Shown here: positions 26,294 to 36,605 of the stretch, in pieces | Layout of the letters: each line of letters opens with the position of its first letter | Position numbering within the stretch: position 1 is the first letter of the stretch | Assembly: GCA_947629245.1 (NCBI GenBank) | Contig: CANRDC010000020.1 | Span: 1-36,605 of the forward strand | Source of the DNA: an uncultured Oscillospiraceae bacterium | GTDB lineage: Bacteria; Bacillota; Clostridia; Oscillospirales; Oscillospiraceae | Direction of reading: 5' to 3' | Length of the DNA stretch: 36,605 bases | Program-made: the position numbers and the translations under genes | Notes under the pieces: generated by a model | Told to the model about the DNA's origin: nothing | The model's database searches: none | What the model saw: the letters and a program-made list of their open reading frames with translations, nothing else

Positions 26294-26324
26294 AATTTAT
26301 TATCACATAGTAGGAGCAGTGGAC

Positions 26325-28250
26325 ATGAGCCGACAAGGAGATAAAAACAAGAAGCCTGCAGGCATAGGCCTCCGAATTTTTTCCTTTATTCCGGCTTTCA
26401 ATTGGATCGCGCTGATCGTGCTTGGAAGCCGCACGTCGCGGCCAGTAAACTCGGTTTTTGGTGTGCTCTATGGCGTTGTAACCTTTGTGTGGCCGCAACA
26501 ATTGGCCTTTATTTCATGGATCGTTGTCATTGTTCACTTTTCCATCGCCGTCCATTTGGAAAAGCGGTCATTCGGAGCAGATTCCCTGGCGCCCGTTCAG
26601 GCTCAGGAGCCCCAAACGCCTTCCTATTGTTCTTCCGACCCTGATATTCGGTATACTGCCAATTCGGCCCCCGACCACTCTCTTGAAGTTGCCTCCCAGT
26701 CCTCCGCCCAAACCACGGGCACAAGTCATACACAGTCTTCCTATGTCGATGTATCTATACCCGGCTCATCGGAAAAGCGCGAATCCATCCCTGTAAAGTC
26801 AACTCCAGTTCAGGATACATATCCCTCAACTGATGCAGGGTTCCACATAACACTCGATATTGCAAGACCTTATTCCGAGTATCCCTCCCGTGATAAGTTC
26901 ATCCGGGATATGAAGCGATTTGCCAACGTCCGCGGAAAGCCCGCCGCCTTTGTCCCCTTCCAACAGTATTGGCCCATGTATGACAGCATGAGCCGCCAGC
27001 AGCAGGCGTGGTATTTCTATTGGCGTTCTGAGGTGCGAAACAAAGCCTTTCCGGATACCGATCTGTCATATATCTATGTTCATGTATACGAGCTGCTCAA
27101 TGGCGTTGGTTGGGATGATCCCAAAGACGGCTATGAGCAGTTAATGACCCTTTGGCTCTCTTATCGCGAACGTTTTCCATCTCTTGATTCTTATCTTTTT
27201 AATTGGACCTTTGATTTCGCGTTGATACATGACTTGTCACCGACATTTCCCTGCGTCCCGGAATATTCATCTTATTATTACCCGGAGCTCAATGATTATC
27301 TTATTGAATCGCATAGTACAGATACACCTTTGAAGCTCCCATTGTCATTGATAGAGAGTCTATGCGACTACAGAATGGCTCGCAATAAGTTTTACCAGGA
27401 TGGACACCAGGAACTGATGATGGAGTCGATCCCGCGCGTGGTCGCTCTTGCGGATGCGGCATCACGGAAGAAAAGCGGACGTGGTATATTGGCTGTATAT
27501 GGGCCGAACCGCCCCCGTAAGCAGGCGCATATCATTTACCAGAGCGCGATCCATCCAGAGGCGAACAAGCGCATTTATGTTCCGGTCAAGGCATATACCT
27601 CCAGCCAGCCATTGCGTACTTATATGAATGAGTTGGTCCGTTATGCGGAGAACAGCTTACGAGAGCTGTATGGCGTCAGAACGCGTCTGCGGAACGTGTC
27701 AATGGATGCGGAGACTGCGGCGCTGATCGATGCGTTTTTAAAGAAAGAGTATAGTCCCGCAGGCGAGGCGCATGCGGCAGCGTCTGTGGAGCTGAAATTG
27801 GACTTTAGCAGCATAGAAGAACTGCGCGCGCAGTCAGACGCAGTACGGGAGGCGCTGGCCGTAGACGAGGAACGCGGCGATATGGAAATGCCGCCCGCCG
27901 ATGAACCCGAAAACACGTCGGGGGAGAAACCGGTGACGGTGGAAACGCAACCCGATAATAATGGCGGCGACCGCTTTGATGTAAACGCTCTTCCCGCTGA
28001 GCTGCGATCTCTCATAGAAGCGATGACACCGGTCCAACAGCAGACGCTTTCTATCATCCTGGCAGGAGAGGATACCCGGTCCGCGCTTGCAAAACTCGCG
28101 GAAGAGGAATTGACGCTGCCGGAAATGCTCATCGACGAGATCAACGATACGGCATCGCAATATTTAGATGATATTCTTATCGACGCGCTCGGAGATGAAC
28201 CGCGTATTTTGAAACAATATGAGCCTGCTCTCAAGGCAGCCCTGAAATAG
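26325..28250 (+). CDS. sngA: TerB_N/TerB_C domain protein, membrane-anchored (Shango SngA-like)
   Basis: This is a 641-residue protein. Residues 15-78 hold two or three hydrophobic segments and a PxP-like turn, followed by a Ser/Thr/Pro-rich linker to about 195. The TerB_N domain then begins with FVPFQQYWPMYDSMSRQQQ and WYFYWRSEVRN, and the TerB_C domain occupies about 487-641 (LKLDFSSIEELRAQ to the end). TerB-type proteins with this layout accompany a BrxC/BrxD-like ATPase and a helicase in the anti-phage system Shango; the exact role of the TerB partner is not known. ATG 26325 is chosen because AGGAG lies 8 bases before it; the GTG two codons earlier is too close. Confidence 0.82.
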   Translation: MSRQGDKNKKPAGIGLRIFSFIPAFNWIALIVLGSRTSRPVNSVFGVLYGVVTFVWPQQLAFISWIVVIVHFSIAVHLEKRSFGADSLAPVQAQEPQTPSYCSSDPDIRYTANSAPDHSLEVASQSSAQTTGTSHTQSSYVDVSIPGSSEKRESIPVKSTPVQDTYPSTDAGFHITLDIARPYSEYPSRDKFIRDMKRFANVRGKPAAFVPFQQYWPMYDSMSRQQQAWYFYWRSEVRNKAFPDTDLSYIYVHVYELLNGVGWDDPKDGYEQLMTLWLSYRERFPSLDSYLFNWTFDFALIHDLSPTFPCVPEYSSYYYPELNDYLIESHSTDTPLKLPLSLIESLCDYRMARNKFYQDGHQELMMESIPRVVALADAASRKKSGRGILAVYGPNRPRKQAHIIYQSAIHPEANKRIYVPVKAYTSSQPLRTYMNELVRYAENSLRELYGVRTRLRNVSMDAETAALIDAFLKKEYSPAGEAHAAASVELKLDFSSIEELRAQSDAVREALAVDEERGDMEMPPADEPENTSGEKPVTVETQPDNNGGDRFDVNALPAELRSLIEAMTPVQQQTLSIILAGEDTRSALAKLAEEELTLPEMLIDEINDTASQYLDDILIDALGDEPRILKQYEPALKAALK

Positions 28251-28260
28251 GAGGTGCACA

Positions 28261-29595
28261 ATGGCAACCACTATCAACCGCCGCGAATCTGCGGCTCTTA
28301 TCAATTCCCTCACAGCGGGCGTTGTCCCCCGCATTGGTCTGAGACACATTGCGGTAGGCCGGCAGCCGGAAGTAAACGCATTTTTGAATGATCTCTCTAC
28401 CGTGGAGGACGGTGGCAGCGCCTTTCGTTTTGTCTGTGGTCAATATGGCAGCGGCAAGAGCTTTTTGCTCCAGTTGATCCGCAACAACGCCATGGACCGG
28501 TCTTTTGCCGTCATGGATGCAGACCTCTCCCCGGAACGGCGTCTCACCGGCGCAAAGGGTCAAGGATTGGCAACATATCGGGAGTTGATGCAGCATCTCT
28601 CCACTCATAACCGTCCGGATGGAGGAGCTCTGGAATCCATTATTCAGAAATGGATTACCGGCATACAGGCCGACACCGCCAAGGAACTTGGCCTGGCGCC
28701 CAATGACCCGGCGCTGATCGATGCTGTCAGTGCCCGTATCGCAGCGGTTCTCTCCGAGCTTTCCGAAATGGCCTATGGCTTTGCATTCTCCGCCGTTATT
28801 GATTCCTATTGGAGGGGCCTGAAATGCGGGGACGACGAACTCAAACAGGCTGCGTTGCGCTGGCTTCGTGGCGAATTTGTTACCAAAACTGAAGCCAGAC
28901 GGTATCTCCCGGTCGACAGGATCATTGACGATCAAAACTGGTATGATTTTTTAAAGCTCTTTGCGCAATTTGTCCACCGCGCAGGATACAATGGCCTTCT
29001 GGCTTTTATTGACGAGGGCGTAAACCTCTACAAGATCAGCCACAAACAGACAAGGGAGAATAACTACGAGAAGGTTCTGACTATCTTCAACGATACCATG
29101 CAGGGAAAGGCCCAGTATATCGGCGTATTCATGAGCGGCACTCCACAGTTCATTTATGACGAGCGCCGCGGACTTTGCAGCTATGAGGCTCTTCGTTCCC
29201 GCCTGGCTGATAACCGTTTCAGCACGCTTGGATTCAAGGATTATAGCAGCCCTGTTATTCGGCTGGCACAACTGTCATCTGAAGAGATATATCTTCTACT
29301 GGAACGGCTGTGCGAACTTCACAGCGCACACTACGGCTACGACTGTCCACTCGGCAAAGATGAGCTGACCCGCTTTATGAGCACGGTCCTCTCCAGGCTT
29401 GGTTCAGACCAGCTTTTGACGCCACGGGAGGTTACGCGAGATTTTCTTGGCCTTCTGAACATTCTCCACGAAAATCCTGAAGCGACCTTTGAAACGCTCA
29501 TCTCCGAGCAGGGGTTTACGGTCCAAAGCGCGGACAAGGACCCCGAGCAGGTCGATGATGTAAGCGACAGTCTGTTCGCGGAATTTGATATATGA
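28261..29595 (+). CDS. sngB: BrxC/BrxD-like ATPase (DUF2791), Shango SngB-like
   Basis: This 444-residue P-loop ATPase has Walker A GQYGSGKSF at residues 60-68 and Walker B LLAFIDEG near 246-253. AFIDEGVNLYKI and the sensor-like VFMSGTPQFIYDERRGL are features of the DUF2791 family found in BREX (BrxD) and Shango. Such ATPases are thought to load or drive a partner on invading DNA. It starts 10 bases after the TerB gene with a GGAGG ribosome site, and its stop overlaps the helicase start (ATGA), so the three are one operon. Confidence 0.87.
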   Translation: MATTINRRESAALINSLTAGVVPRIGLRHIAVGRQPEVNAFLNDLSTVEDGGSAFRFVCGQYGSGKSFLLQLIRNNAMDRSFAVMDADLSPERRLTGAKGQGLATYRELMQHLSTHNRPDGGALESIIQKWITGIQADTAKELGLAPNDPALIDAVSARIAAVLSELSEMAYGFAFSAVIDSYWRGLKCGDDELKQAALRWLRGEFVTKTEARRYLPVDRIIDDQNWYDFLKLFAQFVHRAGYNGLLAFIDEGVNLYKISHKQTRENNYEKVLTIFNDTMQGKAQYIGVFMSGTPQFIYDERRGLCSYEALRSRLADNRFSTLGFKDYSSPVIRLAQLSSEEIYLLLERLCELHSAHYGYDCPLGKDELTRFMSTVLSRLGSDQLLTPREVTRDFLGLLNILHENPEATFETLISEQGFTVQSADKDPEQVDDVSDSLFAEFDI

Positions 29596-31796
29596 GCCAG
29601 ACTGCTTTTGAGCGCTATGCGCCTTTCATTCAGGAATACATATACAGAAAGCAGTGGACGGACCTGCGACAGGTCCAGGTAGAGGCGTGCCAAGCCATCA
29701 TGGACACGGACCGGCATGTCATCATTGCGTCGGGAACTGCTTCAGGAAAAACAGAGGCGGCTTTTTTCCCAATTCTCACCCTGCTGTCCCAGAACCCACC
29801 GGACTCGGTCGGTATTTTATACATCGGGCCGCTGAAGGCGCTCATAAACGATCAGTTCGAGAGATTGAACGAACTTCTCAATGATAGCGGTATCCCTGTC
29901 TGGCCTTGGCACGGGGATATCTCTCAATCAGTTAAGAAGAAGGCGTTGAAGGTCTGCCAAGGAATCGTGCAGATCACGCCGGAGTCCTTGGAAGCGCTGC
30001 TCATGAGCCACGCTGGCGACGCGTATCGCCTGTTCTCCGATCTGCGTTTTATTGTGATCGACGAGCTTCACGCCCTTATGGGTGCTGACAGAGGGCTGCA
30101 GGTCATGTGCCTTATCGCTCGACTTGAGCGACTGATCGGTCGCTCTCCGCGTAGGATCGGATTATCTGCTACCTTGAACGACTACCGCCCGGTCATGACT
30201 TTTCTGGCGGCTGGCAGCAATCGCGGCGCAATGGCGGTCGGAATCCAAAGCCAGCGGCGCACGGTTTCTCTCTGTGTAGAGAATTATCGTGCATCTGAAG
30301 ATGCGGATCAAGCGTCTGATGAAATGCAGGCATTTTATAACTTTATTTATGACAACACTCACAGAAACAAGTGCCTTCTCTTCACAAACAGCAGAGGCAG
30401 CGCTGAAGAGATAGTTGCGAAAATGAAGAGCATCGCAAAGGCACGTCAGGAGCCGGACGTGTTTTTTGTCCATCACGGAAGTGTGTCGGCTGCACTGCGT
30501 CAGGAGGCTGAACACGCCCTTCGAGACCGCACGGGACCCACTGTTGCAGCCGCTACCCTAACATTGGAACTAGGTATAGATATAGGGGATTTGGATTGTA
30601 CGCTCCAGGCAGGAGCTCCCTATTCCTGTGCCAGCTTTGTACAGCGTCTGGGCCGATCTGGTCGGCGAACGGGCAAATCGCGGATGATGTTCGTTAACCT
30701 ACAGAGGGCTTCCGGCGACTCGCCCTTTGATACAATGATCCCTTGGGGGCTGATACGTTCCATCGCGATCATACAGCTATATCTGGAAGAACGCTGGGTA
30801 GAACCATTTATACAGAAACCAAAACCGTTTAGTCTGTTGGCTCATCAGACACTAAGCGTCCTTATGGCGTCAGGGGAACTCAGTCCGGCAGAACTGGCAA
30901 GAAGTGTTCTTCCGCTCCCGCCATTTAAGGATACAGTCACGACAGATGAGTACCGCGCCCTTTTGCGTTATATGCTTCAAGAGGAGTACATACAGCGCAT
31001 GGAGGATGGAGGTATCATCGTCGGTCTAAAAGGCGAGCGGCTCACGAATCACTATACCTTCTATGCTGTTTTTCAAGACGAAAATACGTATCATGTCATT
31101 GCAAAAGAAGGCGAAGTCGGCACCCTGACCACTTGTCCGGCAATCGGCGAAGTTTTTGTGTTAGCTGGACGCACATGGAAAGTCACATCCGTGGATGAAT
31201 CAGGTCAAAGCATCTATGTGGTTCGGGCGCCAAGCAACAAAATTCCATCCTGGTACGGTTCTGCAGGCGATATACATCCCAAGATCGCTCAGAGGATGAG
31301 GCAAGTGCTAGGGGAAGATACAGTCTATCCATATTTACAGTCTCATGCAAAAGAGGCGCTTGAGAAGGCTCGCCAATACGCCGCTTCAAACGGTTTGCTT
31401 TCAAATATGGTTATCCGGGATAAAGGAAGTTCTTTTTATTTGTTCCCCTGGACCGGCACGCGGGAGCTTAAAACGATATCGAAGCTTCTGAGCGTCGGCC
31501 TGAAAGAAAGCCTGGAGGTACAAGCCGTTACAGATCACCGCAATTATTTGTATATTTCCAGCGCACTGGATACCGATGTTTTGATGGAAAACCTGTGTGA
31601 TTTGAATTTACGCACTGACGACCCGGAGCTTATTTTGCCATTGGATCATGTCCCCAGGATGGACAAATACGATTCCATGGTGCCCGAGGCATTGTTGCGC
31701 ACAGCATATCTCTATAATCAGATGGATGTTCCCGCTGCGCTTTCCATCCTGAGACAGGTTGGAAATGATTATGGCACGCCAGCTGGCAGCTCATAG
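29592..31796 (+). CDS. sngC: DEAD/DEAH-box helicase, Lhr-like (Shango SngC-like)
   Basis: This is a 734-residue superfamily 2 helicase. Motif I ASGTASGKTEAAF is at 46-58, motif Ia is YIGPLKALIND, motif II reads VIDELHAL (DELH, near 157), motif III LSATL near 192, and motif VI VQRLGRSGRRTGKS near 350. The C-terminal 380 residues are the long accessory part typical of Lhr/BrxHI-type helicases. No nuclease motif was recognized. It is the third gene of the defence operon and overlaps the ATPase gene by 4 bases. In Shango the helicase acts together with the ATPase and the TerB protein against phage. Confidence 0.88.
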   Translation: MSQTAFERYAPFIQEYIYRKQWTDLRQVQVEACQAIMDTDRHVIIASGTASGKTEAAFFPILTLLSQNPPDSVGILYIGPLKALINDQFERLNELLNDSGIPVWPWHGDISQSVKKKALKVCQGIVQITPESLEALLMSHAGDAYRLFSDLRFIVIDELHALMGADRGLQVMCLIARLERLIGRSPRRIGLSATLNDYRPVMTFLAAGSNRGAMAVGIQSQRRTVSLCVENYRASEDADQASDEMQAFYNFIYDNTHRNKCLLFTNSRGSAEEIVAKMKSIAKARQEPDVFFVHHGSVSAALRQEAEHALRDRTGPTVAAATLTLELGIDIGDLDCTLQAGAPYSCASFVQRLGRSGRRTGKSRMMFVNLQRASGDSPFDTMIPWGLIRSIAIIQLYLEERWVEPFIQKPKPFSLLAHQTLSVLMASGELSPAELARSVLPLPPFKDTVTTDEYRALLRYMLQEEYIQRMEDGGIIVGLKGERLTNHYTFYAVFQDENTYHVIAKEGEVGTLTTCPAIGEVFVLAGRTWKVTSVDESGQSIYVVRAPSNKIPSWYGSAGDIHPKIAQRMRQVLGEDTVYPYLQSHAKEALEKARQYAASNGLLSNMVIRDKGSSFYLFPWTGTRELKTISKLLSVGLKESLEVQAVTDHRNYLYISSALDTDVLMENLCDLNLRTDDPELILPLDHVPRMDKYDSMVPEALLRTAYLYNQMDVPAALSILRQVGNDYGTPAGSS

Positions 31797-31870: not shown

Positions 31871-31891
31871 TTTTGAAAGGTGGTGCATACC

Positions 31892-32194
31892 ATGGCGAAC
31901 AAGACCGCGAATGTGCTGGCCCGTGTGGAGCCGGAGACAAAGCGCGAGGCAGAAGAAGTCATGCAGAAGTTGGGCATCTCCGCTTCCGCGGTGATCAATC
32001 TGCTCTACAACCAGATCATTCTCACCAAGAGCATTCCCTTCCCGCTGACGCTGCCCTGCGAGCCGAAAGCACGGGACGAGATGACCGACGAGGAGTTCTC
32101 CGCTATGCTCCAAAAGGGCATGGATGATGTGCAGGCTGGGCGCACCAGACCCGCCAAAGAGGTGTTTGCCGATCTGCGTCGGGAGCTTTTATGA
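31892..32194 (+). CDS. Type II antitoxin, RelB/DinJ family
   Basis: This 100-residue protein has an N-terminal ribbon-helix-helix (ANVLARVEPETKREAEEV, then LGISASAVINLLYNQI), which binds the operator. An acidic, less ordered C-terminus (MTDEEFSAMLQKGMDDV) would wrap the toxin. The SIPFPLTLP stretch is typical of DinJ/RelB. ATG 31892 follows AAAGGTGG at good spacing. The toxin gene starts at the base after its stop codon, so the two are tightly coupled. Confidence 0.9.
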   Translation: MANKTANVLARVEPETKREAEEVMQKLGISASAVINLLYNQIILTKSIPFPLTLPCEPKARDEMTDEEFSAMLQKGMDDVQAGRTRPAKEVFADLRRELL

Positions 32195-32518
32195 ATGGAG
32201 AGCTATGCCGTTGAGATGACCCGGCAGGCGGAGGAGCAGCTGTCGGAGATCATGCAGTATATCTCCTTGACGCTGCGGTCGCCGCAGGCTGGCGTAAACA
32301 CGCTGGACGCGCTGGAGGAAGAGATCGGTTCTCTTTCGGCCATGCCGTCCCGCTACCCAGCAATAGAAGATGACCCGGCTGGTGATCGTGGCATCCGCAA
32401 AACACGGGCCAAGAACTTCAACATCTACTATCAGGTGGACGACGCCCGGAAGCGCGTCAATATCCTTGCCGTCTGCTACGCCCGCCGGGATCAGAAGAAG
32501 ATAATTGAGAACCTGTGA
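32195..32518 (+). CDS. Type II toxin, RelE/ParE family
   Basis: This 107-residue toxin has the RelE/ParE fold: a first strand YAVEMTRQAEEQL, then helices with LDALEEEIGSLSAMPSRYPAI, then GIRKTRAKNFNIYYQV and VNILAVCYARRDQ. The ILAV.YARRD end is the family mark. RelE toxins cut ribosome-bound mRNA, ParE ones poison gyrase; which applies here cannot be decided. The pair lies between the defence operon and the mobilization module and may stabilize the element. Confidence 0.88.
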   Translation: MESYAVEMTRQAEEQLSEIMQYISLTLRSPQAGVNTLDALEEEIGSLSAMPSRYPAIEDDPAGDRGIRKTRAKNFNIYYQVDDARKRVNILAVCYARRDQKKIIENL

Positions 32519-32999: not shown

Positions 33000-33398
33000 A
33001 TGCCGAAAAAGTACAACACGCCCCATCGGAGCATGACCGTGAAAACACGCCTTAGCAAAGAGGAATATGCCGCCTTTGAAGAACTTGCTGTTTTGTGCGG
33101 CGTCAGCAAAGCCGCATTTATCCGCAAGGCCATCACCGGCGCGCTGCTCAAGCCCACTATCGTGATCACGGCGGTGAATGACGAGCTGCTGAAAAAGCTG
33201 GACGATCTCATCGTGCAATATGGCAAGATCGGCGGCAATCTCAACCAGATTGCTCGACACCTGAACGAGTTCGGAACCGCCTACGCCGACTTGGAAAAAG
33301 AGGTCCGAGACGCAGCCGTTGATCTTGCTATGCTGAAATACGAAGTTCTGGAAAAGGTGGCGGCAGCTATTGGCGACGTTCAAACACATAAACTCTAA
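33000..33398 (+). CDS. mobC: MobC-type relaxosome accessory protein
   Basis: This 132-residue DNA-binding protein has an N-terminal ribbon-helix-helix (SMTVKTRLSKEEYAAFEEL). The MobC signature IGGNLNQIARHLN lies at 77-89, followed by a helical C-terminus. MobC helps the relaxase open oriT. The ATG at 33000 is 12 bases from AAAGGAG; a TTG at 32994 is better spaced (6 bases) and would add two residues. Its end overlaps the relaxase start by 29 bases. Confidence 0.9.
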   Translation: MPKKYNTPHRSMTVKTRLSKEEYAAFEELAVLCGVSKAAFIRKAITGALLKPTIVITAVNDELLKKLDDLIVQYGKIGGNLNQIARHLNEFGTAYADLEKEVRDAAVDLAMLKYEVLEKVAAAIGDVQTHKL

Positions 33399-35010
33399 AA
33401 ACGCCCGGTACAGCGACGCGGAGAAGTACCTGCTTTTTGAGCACGATGAGTTTACCATGAAGCCCATTCTGGATGAAAATGGGCGGCTCATTCCAAGAGA
33501 GGATTACCGCATCGCCGCGCTCAACTGTGAGGGCCAGGATTTTGCCATTGCCTGCATGAGAGCGAATCTGCAATATGGCAAGAACCTGGATCGGCGCGAT
33601 GTGAAAAGCCACCACTTCGTCGTCGCAAGCTCCACATCCCTCGCTTCGCCGCATACGGCAAAGCTCGTCCGTTCCGCTGCGCCTCCTCTCCCCGCAAAGT
33701 CCGATGACTTTGCGGGGACCCCTTTTAGCTTTGACCCACGGGACGGCGCAGACAACGGCTTGACCGTAGACCGGGCACAGGCGCTTGGAGAGCAGTTTTG
33801 CCGCGAGCATTTCCCCGGTCACCAGGCGCTGGTCTGTACCCACCCGGACGGCCACAACCACACCGGCAACATTCATGTACATATCGTCATCAATAGTCTG
33901 CGGATCGAGGATGTCCCTATGCTGCCGTACATGGACCGGCCCGCCGACGTGAAAGCCGGGATGAAGCACCGCTGCACTACTGCGGCGATGGATTATTTCC
34001 GGGCCGAGGTCATGGAGATGTGTCACCGGGAGGGGCTTTACCAGATCGACTTGCTTAACGGCAGTGAGGATCGGATCAATGACCGAGAGTATTGGGCGCA
34101 GAAAAAGGGACAGGCCGCATTGAACAAAAACGGAAGCCCCACCAAGTTTGAAACGGACAAGGAGAAACTGCGAAAAATCATCCGTAAGGCGTTGGAGACG
34201 GCCACTTCTTTTGATGAGTTTGCCGAGCTGCTTCTCCGTGAGGGCGTGACAGTCAAGGAGAGCCGGGGCCGACTATCCTATCTCTCGCCGGACAGAGCGA
34301 AATCCATCACAGCCCGGAAACTGGGCGATGCCTATGATCTCGCGGCGGTGAACGAGGCATTGGCACAAAACGCGCTGAAGCAGCCTGTCCGTTCCAGCGT
34401 TCTGGACAAGCTCCGGGAGGCTGGGACCGTCCAGAATCTTGTGGACATAGATGCTAAACGCGCCGAGGGAAAGGGCATCGGCTACGAGAAATGGGCGCAG
34501 GGATTCAATCTCCAGCAGATGGCAAACACCCTGAACGCATACACCGAGTACGGCTTTTCTTCCATGGACGAGTTGAACGAGTTGTTGTCTGCTGCCCGGA
34601 GCGAATTGCAAGAGAGCCGGGAAAAACTCAAGTCCATAGAGACTGTCCTGGCGGATAAGAAAGAACTATTGAAGCAGCTTCTGACGTATTGGGAAACGAA
34701 GAATGTCCGGCAAGAATACAAGGCACTGAAAACAGCCAAGGCCAGGGCTGAATACGCCCAGGCGCATGAGCGCGAGTTCAAGCTATCCAACGCTGCCGCC
34801 AAGTATTTCAAGGATCACGGTATCACCAAGCTGCCCAGCACCAAGGCCCTGCAAGCGGAGATCCAACAGCTTACATCGGAGCAAAACGCGCGGTATAAAG
34901 ACTACCGGGAAAAGCGGGACCGGGTGGAAGAACTTGAAAGGGTAAGAAGCAACCTGGAGACCGTGCTGGGCCACAAGAAAGAGAAACGCCATGAGCTTAT
35001 TCCATCTTGA
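33370..35010 (+). CDS. Relaxase/mobilization nuclease, MobA/VirD2-like
   Basis: This 546-residue relaxase nicks oriT and pilots the strand into the recipient. The N-terminus has tyrosines 14 and 20 (NARYSDAEKYLLFEHDEF). The metal-binding histidines are in HPDGHNHTGNIHVHIVI (158-174). A long coiled-coil C-terminus follows. The family shows KSHHxxx directly followed by SFDPRDG. Here 34 residues (86-119, bases 33625-33726) are inserted between KSHHFVV and SFDPRDG, encoding a low-complexity Ser/Ala/Pro stretch. The frame is kept, so the protein may still work. The start is TTG 33370, with GGTGG 11 bases upstream; it fits the family N-terminus (MATFK). Confidence 0.9.
   Translation: MATFKHINSKNARYSDAEKYLLFEHDEFTMKPILDENGRLIPREDYRIAALNCEGQDFAIACMRANLQYGKNLDRRDVKSHHFVVASSTSLASPHTAKLVRSAAPPLPAKSDDFAGTPFSFDPRDGADNGLTVDRAQALGEQFCREHFPGHQALVCTHPDGHNHTGNIHVHIVINSLRIEDVPMLPYMDRPADVKAGMKHRCTTAAMDYFRAEVMEMCHREGLYQIDLLNGSEDRINDREYWAQKKGQAALNKNGSPTKFETDKEKLRKIIRKALETATSFDEFAELLLREGVTVKESRGRLSYLSPDRAKSITARKLGDAYDLAAVNEALAQNALKQPVRSSVLDKLREAGTVQNLVDIDAKRAEGKGIGYEKWAQGFNLQQMANTLNAYTEYGFSSMDELNELLSAARSELQESREKLKSIETVLADKKELLKQLLTYWETKNVRQEYKALKTAKARAEYAQAHEREFKLSNAAAKYFKDHGITKLPSTKALQAEIQQLTSEQNARYKDYREKRDRVEELERVRSNLETVLGHKKEKRHELIPS
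33625..33726 (+). repeat. In-frame 102-bp palindromic insertion inside the relaxase gene
   Basis: This is the extra segment relative to the relaxase family. It contains a perfect 12-bp stem CCCCGCAAAGTC/GACTTTGCGGGG with a CGAT loop (33690-33717) and a small hairpin GCCG-CATA-CGGC (33648-33659). Its length is a multiple of three and it has no stop in the gene's frame, so it adds 34 codons. I recall AKSxDFAGTP-like translations as common in gut Clostridia, which suggests a dispersed palindromic element. Confidence 0.65.
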
Positions 35011-35428
35011 ACTGCTCCCGCCGATTGAGAGACAGCCAGACGGTTCTCTCCCACGCATGACCGGCAGACAGCGGCAACGGGCCGTTACGCTCATCCGCAA
35101 GCTGTGCAGTGCCTGTGACAACGGCAACTGCCTGTACTTGGACGACGGCGAGGAAGTCCCCTGTCCGCAAACGCTCTCTTATTCCGTCTGCTGCAAAATT
35201 TTTCGCTGGGTGCTGTTGAGGGACAAGGCCGGACAGGAATTAGAAACGGAACTGTTCGGCAAGGACGCTATGAAGCGGTGCGCGATCTGCGGCAGGGCAT
35301 TCTTCCCCGGCTCCAACCGGGCGAAATACTGCGATGACTGCAAGGCCATAGTCCAGCGGCGGCAAAAGGCGGAGTACGCCAAACGACACAGGGCGGAGAG
35401 TAGAACGATAGAGCAGCAAAGTCCCTGA
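34991..35428 (+). CDS. Cysteine-rich VLP domain protein
   Basis: This 145-residue protein is typical of mobilization modules of gut Firmicutes. The N-terminal part (RQRQRAVTLIRKLCSAC then NCLYLDDGEEVPC) and the C-terminal zinc finger (RCAICGRAFFPGSNRAKYCDDC) supply about ten cysteines, probably holding zinc. The tail is very basic (QRRQKAEYAKRHR), so it may bind nucleic acid. The name VLP refers to a short motif, seen here as WVLLRD. It overlaps the relaxase end by 20 bases and is likely translated with it. No precise role is known. Confidence 0.78.
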   Translation: MSLFHLELLPPIERQPDGSLPRMTGRQRQRAVTLIRKLCSACDNGNCLYLDDGEEVPCPQTLSYSVCCKIFRWVLLRDKAGQELETELFGKDAMKRCAICGRAFFPGSNRAKYCDDCKAIVQRRQKAEYAKRHRAESRTIEQQSP

Positions 35429-35934: not shown

Positions 35935-36605
35935 TTGAAACGACCGAACAATGCGGCTCTCTATATGAGATTGAGCGTGGACGACGAGAACTATGGCGAC
36001 AGCGTGAGTATCGAGACCCAGCGGACGATCCTGCGGACATATGTCAAAGAAAACGGTTTTACCGTCTACGACGAGTATGTGGACGACGGATGGAGCGGGA
36101 CCAATTTCGAGCGGCCTGCCTTCCAGCGCATGATGGCCGATGTGGACGCGGGCAAGGTCAACTGCATCATAACAAAGGACCTGTCTCGTTTCGGGCGCGA
36201 GCACGTTATGATGGATTATTACCTGGAGTTCGTGTTCCCGGAAAAGCGGGTCCGCTATATCGCCGTCACGGACAACGAGGACACGGAAAAGGGCCTGAGC
36301 GACTTTGTGCCGTTCAAAAACCTGTTCAACGAGTGGCTGGCCAAGGACACCAGCCGGAAGGTGAAAGCGGCCTATAAGGCGAAATTCGCGGCGGGCGAAC
36401 ACCTTTGCGCCTGTGCGCCGCTGGGCTATATAAAAGACCCCGAGCACCCGAACAAGCTGCTCATAGACGACCAGACCCGTTGGATCGTGGAGCGTATTTT
36501 CGAGCTGGCCGCCCGTGGGACAGGCCCTGCAAAGATCGTAAAGATACTGACAGAGGAAAAGGTCCCGACGCCAAGCTGGATACACTATCAGAGGGAGGGC
36601 CTGTT
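35935..36605 (+). CDS. Large serine recombinase, TnpX/TndX-like (3' end outside window)
   Basis: The first 223 codons of the element's site-specific recombinase are present. The catalytic serine is Ser14 in LYMRLSVDDE, and SVSIETQRTIL, DDGWSGTNFERPAF and IITKDLSRFGREH are the conserved resolvase-domain blocks. YIKDPEHPNKLLIDDQT and the following IVERIFELAARG start the recombinase domain. Large serine recombinases of this kind excise and insert mobilizable elements using short core sites. The start is TTG 35935 with a full AAGGAGGT ribosome site 5 bases before it. The reading frame is still open at the window edge. Confidence 0.93.
   Translation, partial: MKRPNNAALYMRLSVDDENYGDSVSIETQRTILRTYVKENGFTVYDEYVDDGWSGTNFERPAFQRMMADVDAGKVNCIITKDLSRFGREHVMMDYYLEFVFPEKRVRYIAVTDNEDTEKGLSDFVPFKNLFNEWLAKDTSRKVKAAYKAKFAAGEHLCACAPLGYIKDPEHPNKLLIDDQTRWIVERIFELAARGTGPAKIVKILTEEKVPTPSWIHYQREGL

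Follow-up and report, generated by a model that had tools for sequence, protein, structure and literature searches.

A dispersed two-hairpin palindromic element lying in frame within a relaxase gene of an uncultured Oscillospiraceae bacterium

Near the end of the 36,605-nucleotide stretch of DNA analysed here (the window; contig CANRDC010000020.1 of assembly GCA_947629245.1, from an uncultured Oscillospiraceae bacterium) is a relaxase gene whose product has 546 residues, against an aligned length of 512 residues in its relatives. What are the 102 extra bases of this gene, and how did they come to lie within it? They very probably represent an insertion into the relaxase gene of a mobile palindromic element of about 106 bp, which is built of two hairpins and has no gene of its own. 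A palindromic insertion had been proposed in a preliminary description made from the sequence alone.

The relaxase gene and its uninterrupted relatives

The interrupted protein matches the MobA/VirD2 family (PF03432) in a Pfam search with an E-value of 3e-9 over residues 119–180. It contains the nuclease domain of that family with its HxxxxHxH motif, and its HNHTGNIHVH region is kept across the alignment of homologues. The insert had first been placed just ahead of this catalytic histidine motif, which in fact follows some 40–50 residues further on. With a MobC/NikA-like gene before it and genes for a Cys-rich VLP protein and a serine recombinase after it (Table 1), the relaxase probably belongs to a mobilisable element. 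Upstream in the window, at 26319–31796, are a TerB_N/TerB_C protein, a BrxC/BrxD ATPase and a DEAD helicase in succession, a row that looks like an operon of phage-defence type close to the mobilisation genes; a RelB-type antitoxin gene and then a ParE-type toxin gene occupy 31880–32518. A sequence search of the PDB with a relaxase homologue as the query gave no relaxase match at E up to 1, and a protein search of the plasmid collection gave no relaxase homologue at 1e-40.

Table 1. Features of the window at and around the interrupted relaxase gene
Feature	Position	Strand	Details	Basis
MobC/NikA-like mobilisation protein gene	33000..33398	+	precedes relaxase	Pfam
MobA/VirD2-type relaxase gene with element in frame	33370..35010	+	546 aa	open frame; PF03432
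Palindromic element, complete copy	33617..33722	+	5' TCGTCG to 3' GGGGACCCC	covariance model R1
Hairpin 1, inner part	33643..33664	+	GCTT.GCCG / CGGC.AAGC	fold; compensatory changes between copies
Hairpin 2	33689..33718	+	13-bp perfect stem, 4-nt loop; arms 33689-33701/33706-33718	inverted repeat
Junction bases	33723..33726	+	TTTT	comparison with uninterrupted relaxase genes
Cys-rich VLP protein gene	34991..35428	+	adjoins relaxase	Pfam
Serine recombinase gene, resolvase N-terminal domain	35935..36603	+	continues past window end	Pfam

A protein search of the 35 genomes of the genus yielded nine distinct full-length relaxase homologues besides that of the window, plus some partial ones. Two damaged homologues were also seen, at L015/L022 (genome G021) and at L010/L125 (G024:C37), one missing a large middle part and the other carrying an in-frame stop. 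Aligned with the window protein over the whole length, each of the nine full-length proteins (83–88% identical) shows one gap and no other, 34 residues long and placed after window residue 85. This bears out the proposed in-frame insertion, and with it the expectation of an alignment otherwise free of gaps.

Relatives encode KSHHYII-SFDP where the window encodes KSHHFVV, 34 further residues and SFDP. The insert thus splits the conserved HHYIISFDP stretch, of which YIIS, at the insertion point, is invariant in the four homologues compared. In the relatives whose DNA was read, the codons are CAC-TAC/TAT-ATC/ATT-ATC-AGC-TTT/TTC; in the window they are CAC-TTC-GTC-GTC, the insert and AGC-TTT, and Phe-Val-Val, encoded by the first codons of the element, conservatively replaces Tyr-Ile-Ile. 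The 102 bp are a net gain, in which the 106 bp of the element and 4 junction bases replace 8 host bases, which are ACATCATC in most of the relatives whose DNA was read and ATATTATC in L008. The limits originally given, 33625..33726, need correcting; those of the element are 33617–33722.

Two other accounts of the extra residues bear on this comparison. Relaxase loops and linkers do vary, and the more distant homologues L207–L209 have gaps at other places in the alignment, as would suit a natural variable loop of the relaxase family in which the palindrome is a coincidence. Yet neither the nine full-length genus homologues nor L207–L209 have any residue at the insert position, and members of this DNA family are found at dozens of sites besides this one, as well as elsewhere in the homologous relaxase of L189; refuted by these dispersed copies, the variable loop is given practically no credence here. 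An artefact of assembly or binning is barely credible: the assembly is, like many of the genomes used, an incomplete draft (146 contigs, 87% complete), but both flanks of the insert match one and the same gene of the relatives at about 90%, the edges of the insert coincide with the element ends to within a few bases, and in a different genome a homologous relaxase (L189) is interrupted by the element in the same frame.

Two hairpins between fixed ends

Between its ends, TCGTCG and GGGG(A/G)CCCC, the element has a first hairpin of about 65 nt (hairpin 1), joined by a pyrimidine link to hairpin 2. A BLAST search of the own genome with the insert yielded five further copies, and from six own-genome copies, that of the window among them, we built covariance model R1 (106 positions, 27 pairs), which the window copy matches at positions 1–106 of 106 with 117.5 bits. 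With its edges (33616–33732), the insert has a folding z-score of −4.4, none of 200 dinucleotide shuffles being as good. The smaller hairpin of the preliminary description is confirmed as the inner part of hairpin 1, with one mismatched pair. Its larger stem, described as a perfect 12 bp at 33690–33717, is indeed perfectly paired but one pair longer, with arms of 13 nt.

The ends are fixed among 181 distinct copies, of which 132 start with TCGTCG and 138 finish with GGGGACCCC or GGGGGCCCC. Both hairpins are conserved in structure: compensatory changes affect 14 of the 27 model pairs among the six own-genome copies, and hairpin 2 occurs with 33 different arm pairs while keeping 889 of 952 outer pairs (87 copies parsed of 92). 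Five unlike copies, an own-genome sub-type included, fold to one common plan. That sub-type (L301, L303–L305, L307 and L308) has similar ends and a similar type of hairpin 2, but its hairpin 1 is a different one, longer and including GAAGAT…ATCGGTCA.

Upstream of prfA, two orthologous copies from two genomes (L053 and L065) have near-identical hairpin 1 and wholly different hairpin 2. Hairpin 2 may therefore have been exchanged or replaced in place, a difference suggesting that copies exchange modules or convert one another. Rfam gave no gathering-level match in the window, its best E-value on the insert stretch being 0.91, and on 14 other loci it found two tRNAs and nothing else. Both are in L307, where an element copy lies between the two tRNA genes at 1927–2198.

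Distribution of the family was followed with R1, using E cut-offs that differ between searches. Scoring covered a part of the candidates in each genome, so counts per genome are lower bounds. The model has 41 matches in the own genome and at least one in 30 of the 35 genus genomes, own included, with 0 to 74 per genome (E ≤ 1e-3), and the dispersal that the preliminary description had looked to is plain: many genus genomes hold tens of copies, located at unrelated sites. In the family, 155 of 250 genomes have matches (E ≤ 1e-4). They cover 81 of 106 genera, so a structurally defined palindromic family reaches the majority of the genera sampled from this gut family, and many genomes hold it in dozens of copies. 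Matches were found in 54 of 295 genomes of a draw from the order, 17 of these in the family, and in five of 299 from the phylum, two being the own genome and another of its family (both E ≤ 1e-6); from the last figure the model is specific. The element family thus extends across gut Oscillospiraceae and into further families of their order. Neither observation that would speak against an insertion, presence of the 34 residues in most homologues or a lack of further copies, was made.

An exact pattern scan found the element in 36 stretches of named records, namely uncultured Oscillospiraceae and Clostridia assemblies, one Bacillota assembly and Acutalibacter sp. 1XD8-33; many of these records are labelled Lapin, which we take as rabbit gut. 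One copy lies on a Subdoligranulum variabile plasmid. In the open-access literature we came across no account of elements like this from these bacteria. Tandem arrays of the element are present at L271 (2001–2437, with a 164-bp period) and, on the reverse strand, at L056 (1300–1720).

Junctions and the question of a mover

Copies that are 98–99% identical lie between unlike flanks in different genomes (L117/L073 and L033/L034), and such signs of recent movement between species are found in a family repeatedly captured in frame by genes linked to DNA transfer. Filled sites can be set beside empty ones. One intergenic copy has a HIGH nucleotidyl transferase gene on one side and prfA on the other. 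The site before prfA is filled in L129 and L137, empty in the closest relatives L132, L133 and L149, and occupied by unrelated sequence in other genomes. Compared with L132 (flanks 89% identical), the element is inserted between ...GTGTGAC and ATGGACG with no base duplicated or lost. At the relaxase site there is no target duplication beyond one shared T. Upstream of the mobC region, where four of the nine full-length relatives have a copy and the window has none, some 6–8 bases are missing to the right of the element. Matching empty sites of this kind make the family one system for testing how transposase-free elements move.

Some copies are found within another palindromic repeat, in many cases at its loop, and some are nested in one another (L079, L117); for these the empty site is a paralogue and the junctions are less secure. 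A second dispersed palindromic family (CCCCCAGTCAGCGC…GCGCTGACAGCCCCC and related segments) is present in the same genomes (L035, L112, L124, L064, L130, L146 and others), and the element is often found within its loop or close by. Past the element ends the flanking sequence has only weak biases, the first base to the right being A or G in 80 of 93 rows.

We infer that the element moves as a unit by way of a folded single strand, mobilised by an enzyme encoded outside it. Joining would take place without target duplication, exactly on the left and raggedly on the right, where some sites would lose a few bases.

Among the examined loci, no half-elements flank a transposase gene: 136 copies are complete, and eight apparent exceptions, none with a gene between its ends, are by eye nested, tandem, diverged or shortened copies. 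Nor was a larger autonomous relative seen among these loci. A classical MITE would be a DNA transposon that has lost its interior, keeps terminal inverted repeats and depends on a DDE transposase; the element matches this in size, in having no gene of its own, and in being dispersed, mobile and present in many copies. The ends TCGTCG and GGGG(A/G)CCCC are, however, not inverted repeats of each other, target duplication is absent at the prfA and relaxase sites, and no parent transposon with the same ends appeared among the examined loci, which makes a MITE very improbable.

Single-strand transposition of the IS200/IS605 and RAYT types involves hairpins near the element ends and no target duplication. 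The element resembles these systems in having hairpins near its ends and no target duplication at resolved sites, and differs from them in that no conserved target tetranucleotide adjoins either end (93 rows) and no Y1 transposase was found in several high-copy genomes. The Y1 domain (PF01797) was found in 12 of the 35 genus genomes and gave no match in 23, among them G015 (74 element matches, 74% complete), G013 (60, 73%), G017 (52, 93%) and G033 (47, 77%), in some of which a Y1 gene could have been missed. The sole match in the own genome is an IS200-like gene with ends unlike those of the element. A Y1 transposase is unsupported as the mover.

These observations bear on whether the element should be counted among the REPs, mobilised by RAYT (Y1) transposases. 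It is small and hairpin-forming, it joins its resolved sites with no target duplication, and the CGTC at one end recalls the tag of CGTC-tagged REPs, which include RPE-4 and RPE-6 of Rickettsia conorii (PMC3733652, extract). The likeness to CGTC-tagged REPs extends to the CGTC being unpaired at one end of a hairpin, to a mostly intergenic location with some copies in genes, and to no dedicated transposase being known, as far as the extract of that paper describes them (PMC3733652). REPs are nevertheless 20–40 bp long; their stem of 8–9 bp begins with A-T pairs, and the tail is in most cases CCA (PMC3733652, extract). Rather than a GTAG or CGTC tag beside a single hairpin of that length, we find a 5' CGTC on a two-hairpin unit of about 106 bp, in which stem 1 starts with G-C pairs in the folds and the tail is CCCC. 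With no Y1-type transposase flanked by the repeat or otherwise assignable to it in the genome, a REP moved by RAYT is quite improbable.

Some copies of the element lie near mobilisation genes. Such genes are close to 2 of 40 own-genome loci and to 18 of 107 other loci, figures from which no enrichment is claimed, the 107 including duplicates (L189/L265, L191/L266) and four loci (L261–L264) picked partly for a nearby MobL gene. Outside the genus, in a biased sample, copies at L191, L192, L194, L195, L229, L239 and L268 adjoin genes for relaxases, MobL or Cys-rich VLP proteins, as though mobilisable elements had brought them from one species to another. A broader proposal, rather unlikely but not far-fetched, is that the family represents an undescribed class of two-hairpin single-strand elements, spread through an order of gut bacteria and parasitising conjugation, which would ride on mobilisable elements, use an as yet unrecognised enzyme to insert into single-stranded hairpin loops (palindromes beside oriT, other repeats, their own copies) and recurrently join the relaxases and accessory proteins of their carriers.

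In-frame copies and the state of the decorated relaxase

To find copies within genes, frames spanning the 181 copies were scored by codon use, and those coding-like on both sides were submitted to Pfam, the codon score alone being unreliable because antisense frames score equally well. Long spanning frames in L055, L082, L089, L254 and L033 were rejected as domain-free; in DNA this rich in GC they are probably artefacts of the antisense strand. What remains is five loci at four sites, a small minority of the copies in this screen and not a ceiling, since frames with one coding-like side (for example, L241, L245, L301 and L308) fell outside the Pfam check. The element is thus in frame in at least three genes besides the window relaxase, from which it is absent in nine relatives, and all of these genes are linked to mobile elements. 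With that of the window, the set comprises two MobA/VirD2-type relaxases that differ in where the element lies, one MobL relaxase and, shared by two genomes, one CHC2 zinc-finger protein.

The second MobA/VirD2-type relaxase (L189, 462–2087) is homologous to that of the window and comes from another genus. Its element lies in the linker after the nuclease domain, in the same orientation and frame as in the window, and is absent from its best homologues (L207 and L208). The MobL relaxase (L115) has Sel1 repeats and carries the element on the other strand. No model match lies within the MobL gene at the 30 MobL homologue loci examined; the closest of them (L159) shares no more than 55% identity and carries different residues in the insert region, so this junction is not pinned by comparison.

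In the CHC2 zinc-finger protein (L233 and L234, from genomes of different families) the element is again on the other strand, in a frame unlike that of L115. The closest homologues (L283–L286) align throughout except for a 37-residue gap, and the protein has no relative in viral contigs. Between the two genomes the insert differs by three nucleotides, all of which change the amino acid and none of which is silent, with silent divergence of about 0.25 in the flanks; by this measure the added peptide appears to show no sign of selection as protein. For annotators this is a warning that a peptide met again and again in proteins of such bacteria is not necessarily a domain.

Elements of 106, 107 or 113 bp alone would shift the frame, so survival within a gene needs a change at the junction. 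Only 42 of the 181 copies have a length divisible by three. Element copies have 4.67 of six frames open on average, versus 3.61 in shuffles (92 related copies; a descriptive figure). Copies landing in genes would mostly be purged, and those that survive would be the ones in which element and junction change add up to a multiple of three and the mostly stop-free frames of the element keep the gene open. Frame-breaking insertions lie outside the count, so a bias towards in-frame insertion is not demonstrated by it.

We know of no enzyme that mobilises the Rickettsia palindromic elements (RPEs), to which the preliminary description had compared the insert. Rickettsia is the best-known source of palindromic elements retained in genes as protein, and palindromic repeats within genes are on record both for RPEs (PMC10969869, extract) and, in several bacteria, for REPs (PMC3733652, extract). 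RPEs are about 150 bp long, present in many copies and often in frame in unrelated genes, where they are read as added protein (PMC10969869, extract). The comparison holds for behaviour and is not based on sequence: here too palindromic copies are dispersed (the 41 own-genome matches) and some lie in frame in unrelated genes (the four sites). It does not hold for the share of copies in genes, which is small here (five loci of 181), unlike in the Rickettsia reports. The element family further differs in belonging to another phylum, in occupying genes linked to mobile elements rather than metabolic genes, and in its two-hairpin design with a hypervariable second hairpin. It behaves like RPEs and REPs while differing in length, two-hairpin plan, tail, taxonomic range and an apparent lack of RAYT.

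Whether the decorated relaxase still functions is a separate matter. The dN/dS of the window relaxase against its relatives is 0.08–0.12 (0.07–0.14 among the relatives), and at otherwise invariant codons the window has ten silent and three replacement changes of its own. On codon comparison, these values exclude a long-standing decay of the gene and are blind to a very recent loss of function. AlphaFold2 modelled the insert as coil with very low confidence, in a model with a mean pLDDT of 54.6 that is unusable for the relaxase domain, being below 50 over residues 1–134 and 147–262.

That the gene is dead, caught soon after the insertion and in frame by a one-in-three chance, is a real possibility to which we give slightly less than even weight. 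The splitting of the invariant YIIS, the coil of the model, low dN/dS values that may date from before the insertion, and the copies whose length is already divisible by three are all in keeping with it. Against it stand the 428 codons from the insert end, which contain no stop or frameshift, and the compensating junction change, the 106-bp copy alone breaking the frame. Against it also are the three independent in-frame insertions in other genes, one of them common to two genomes of different families with the gene diverged around it. With its matching empty sites, the relaxase also allows a test of whether a catalytic enzyme can accommodate, within its core, a peptide derived from a hairpin. 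Because Phe-Val-Val stands in for Tyr-Ile-Ile, the insert could bulge out of the relaxase as a loop.
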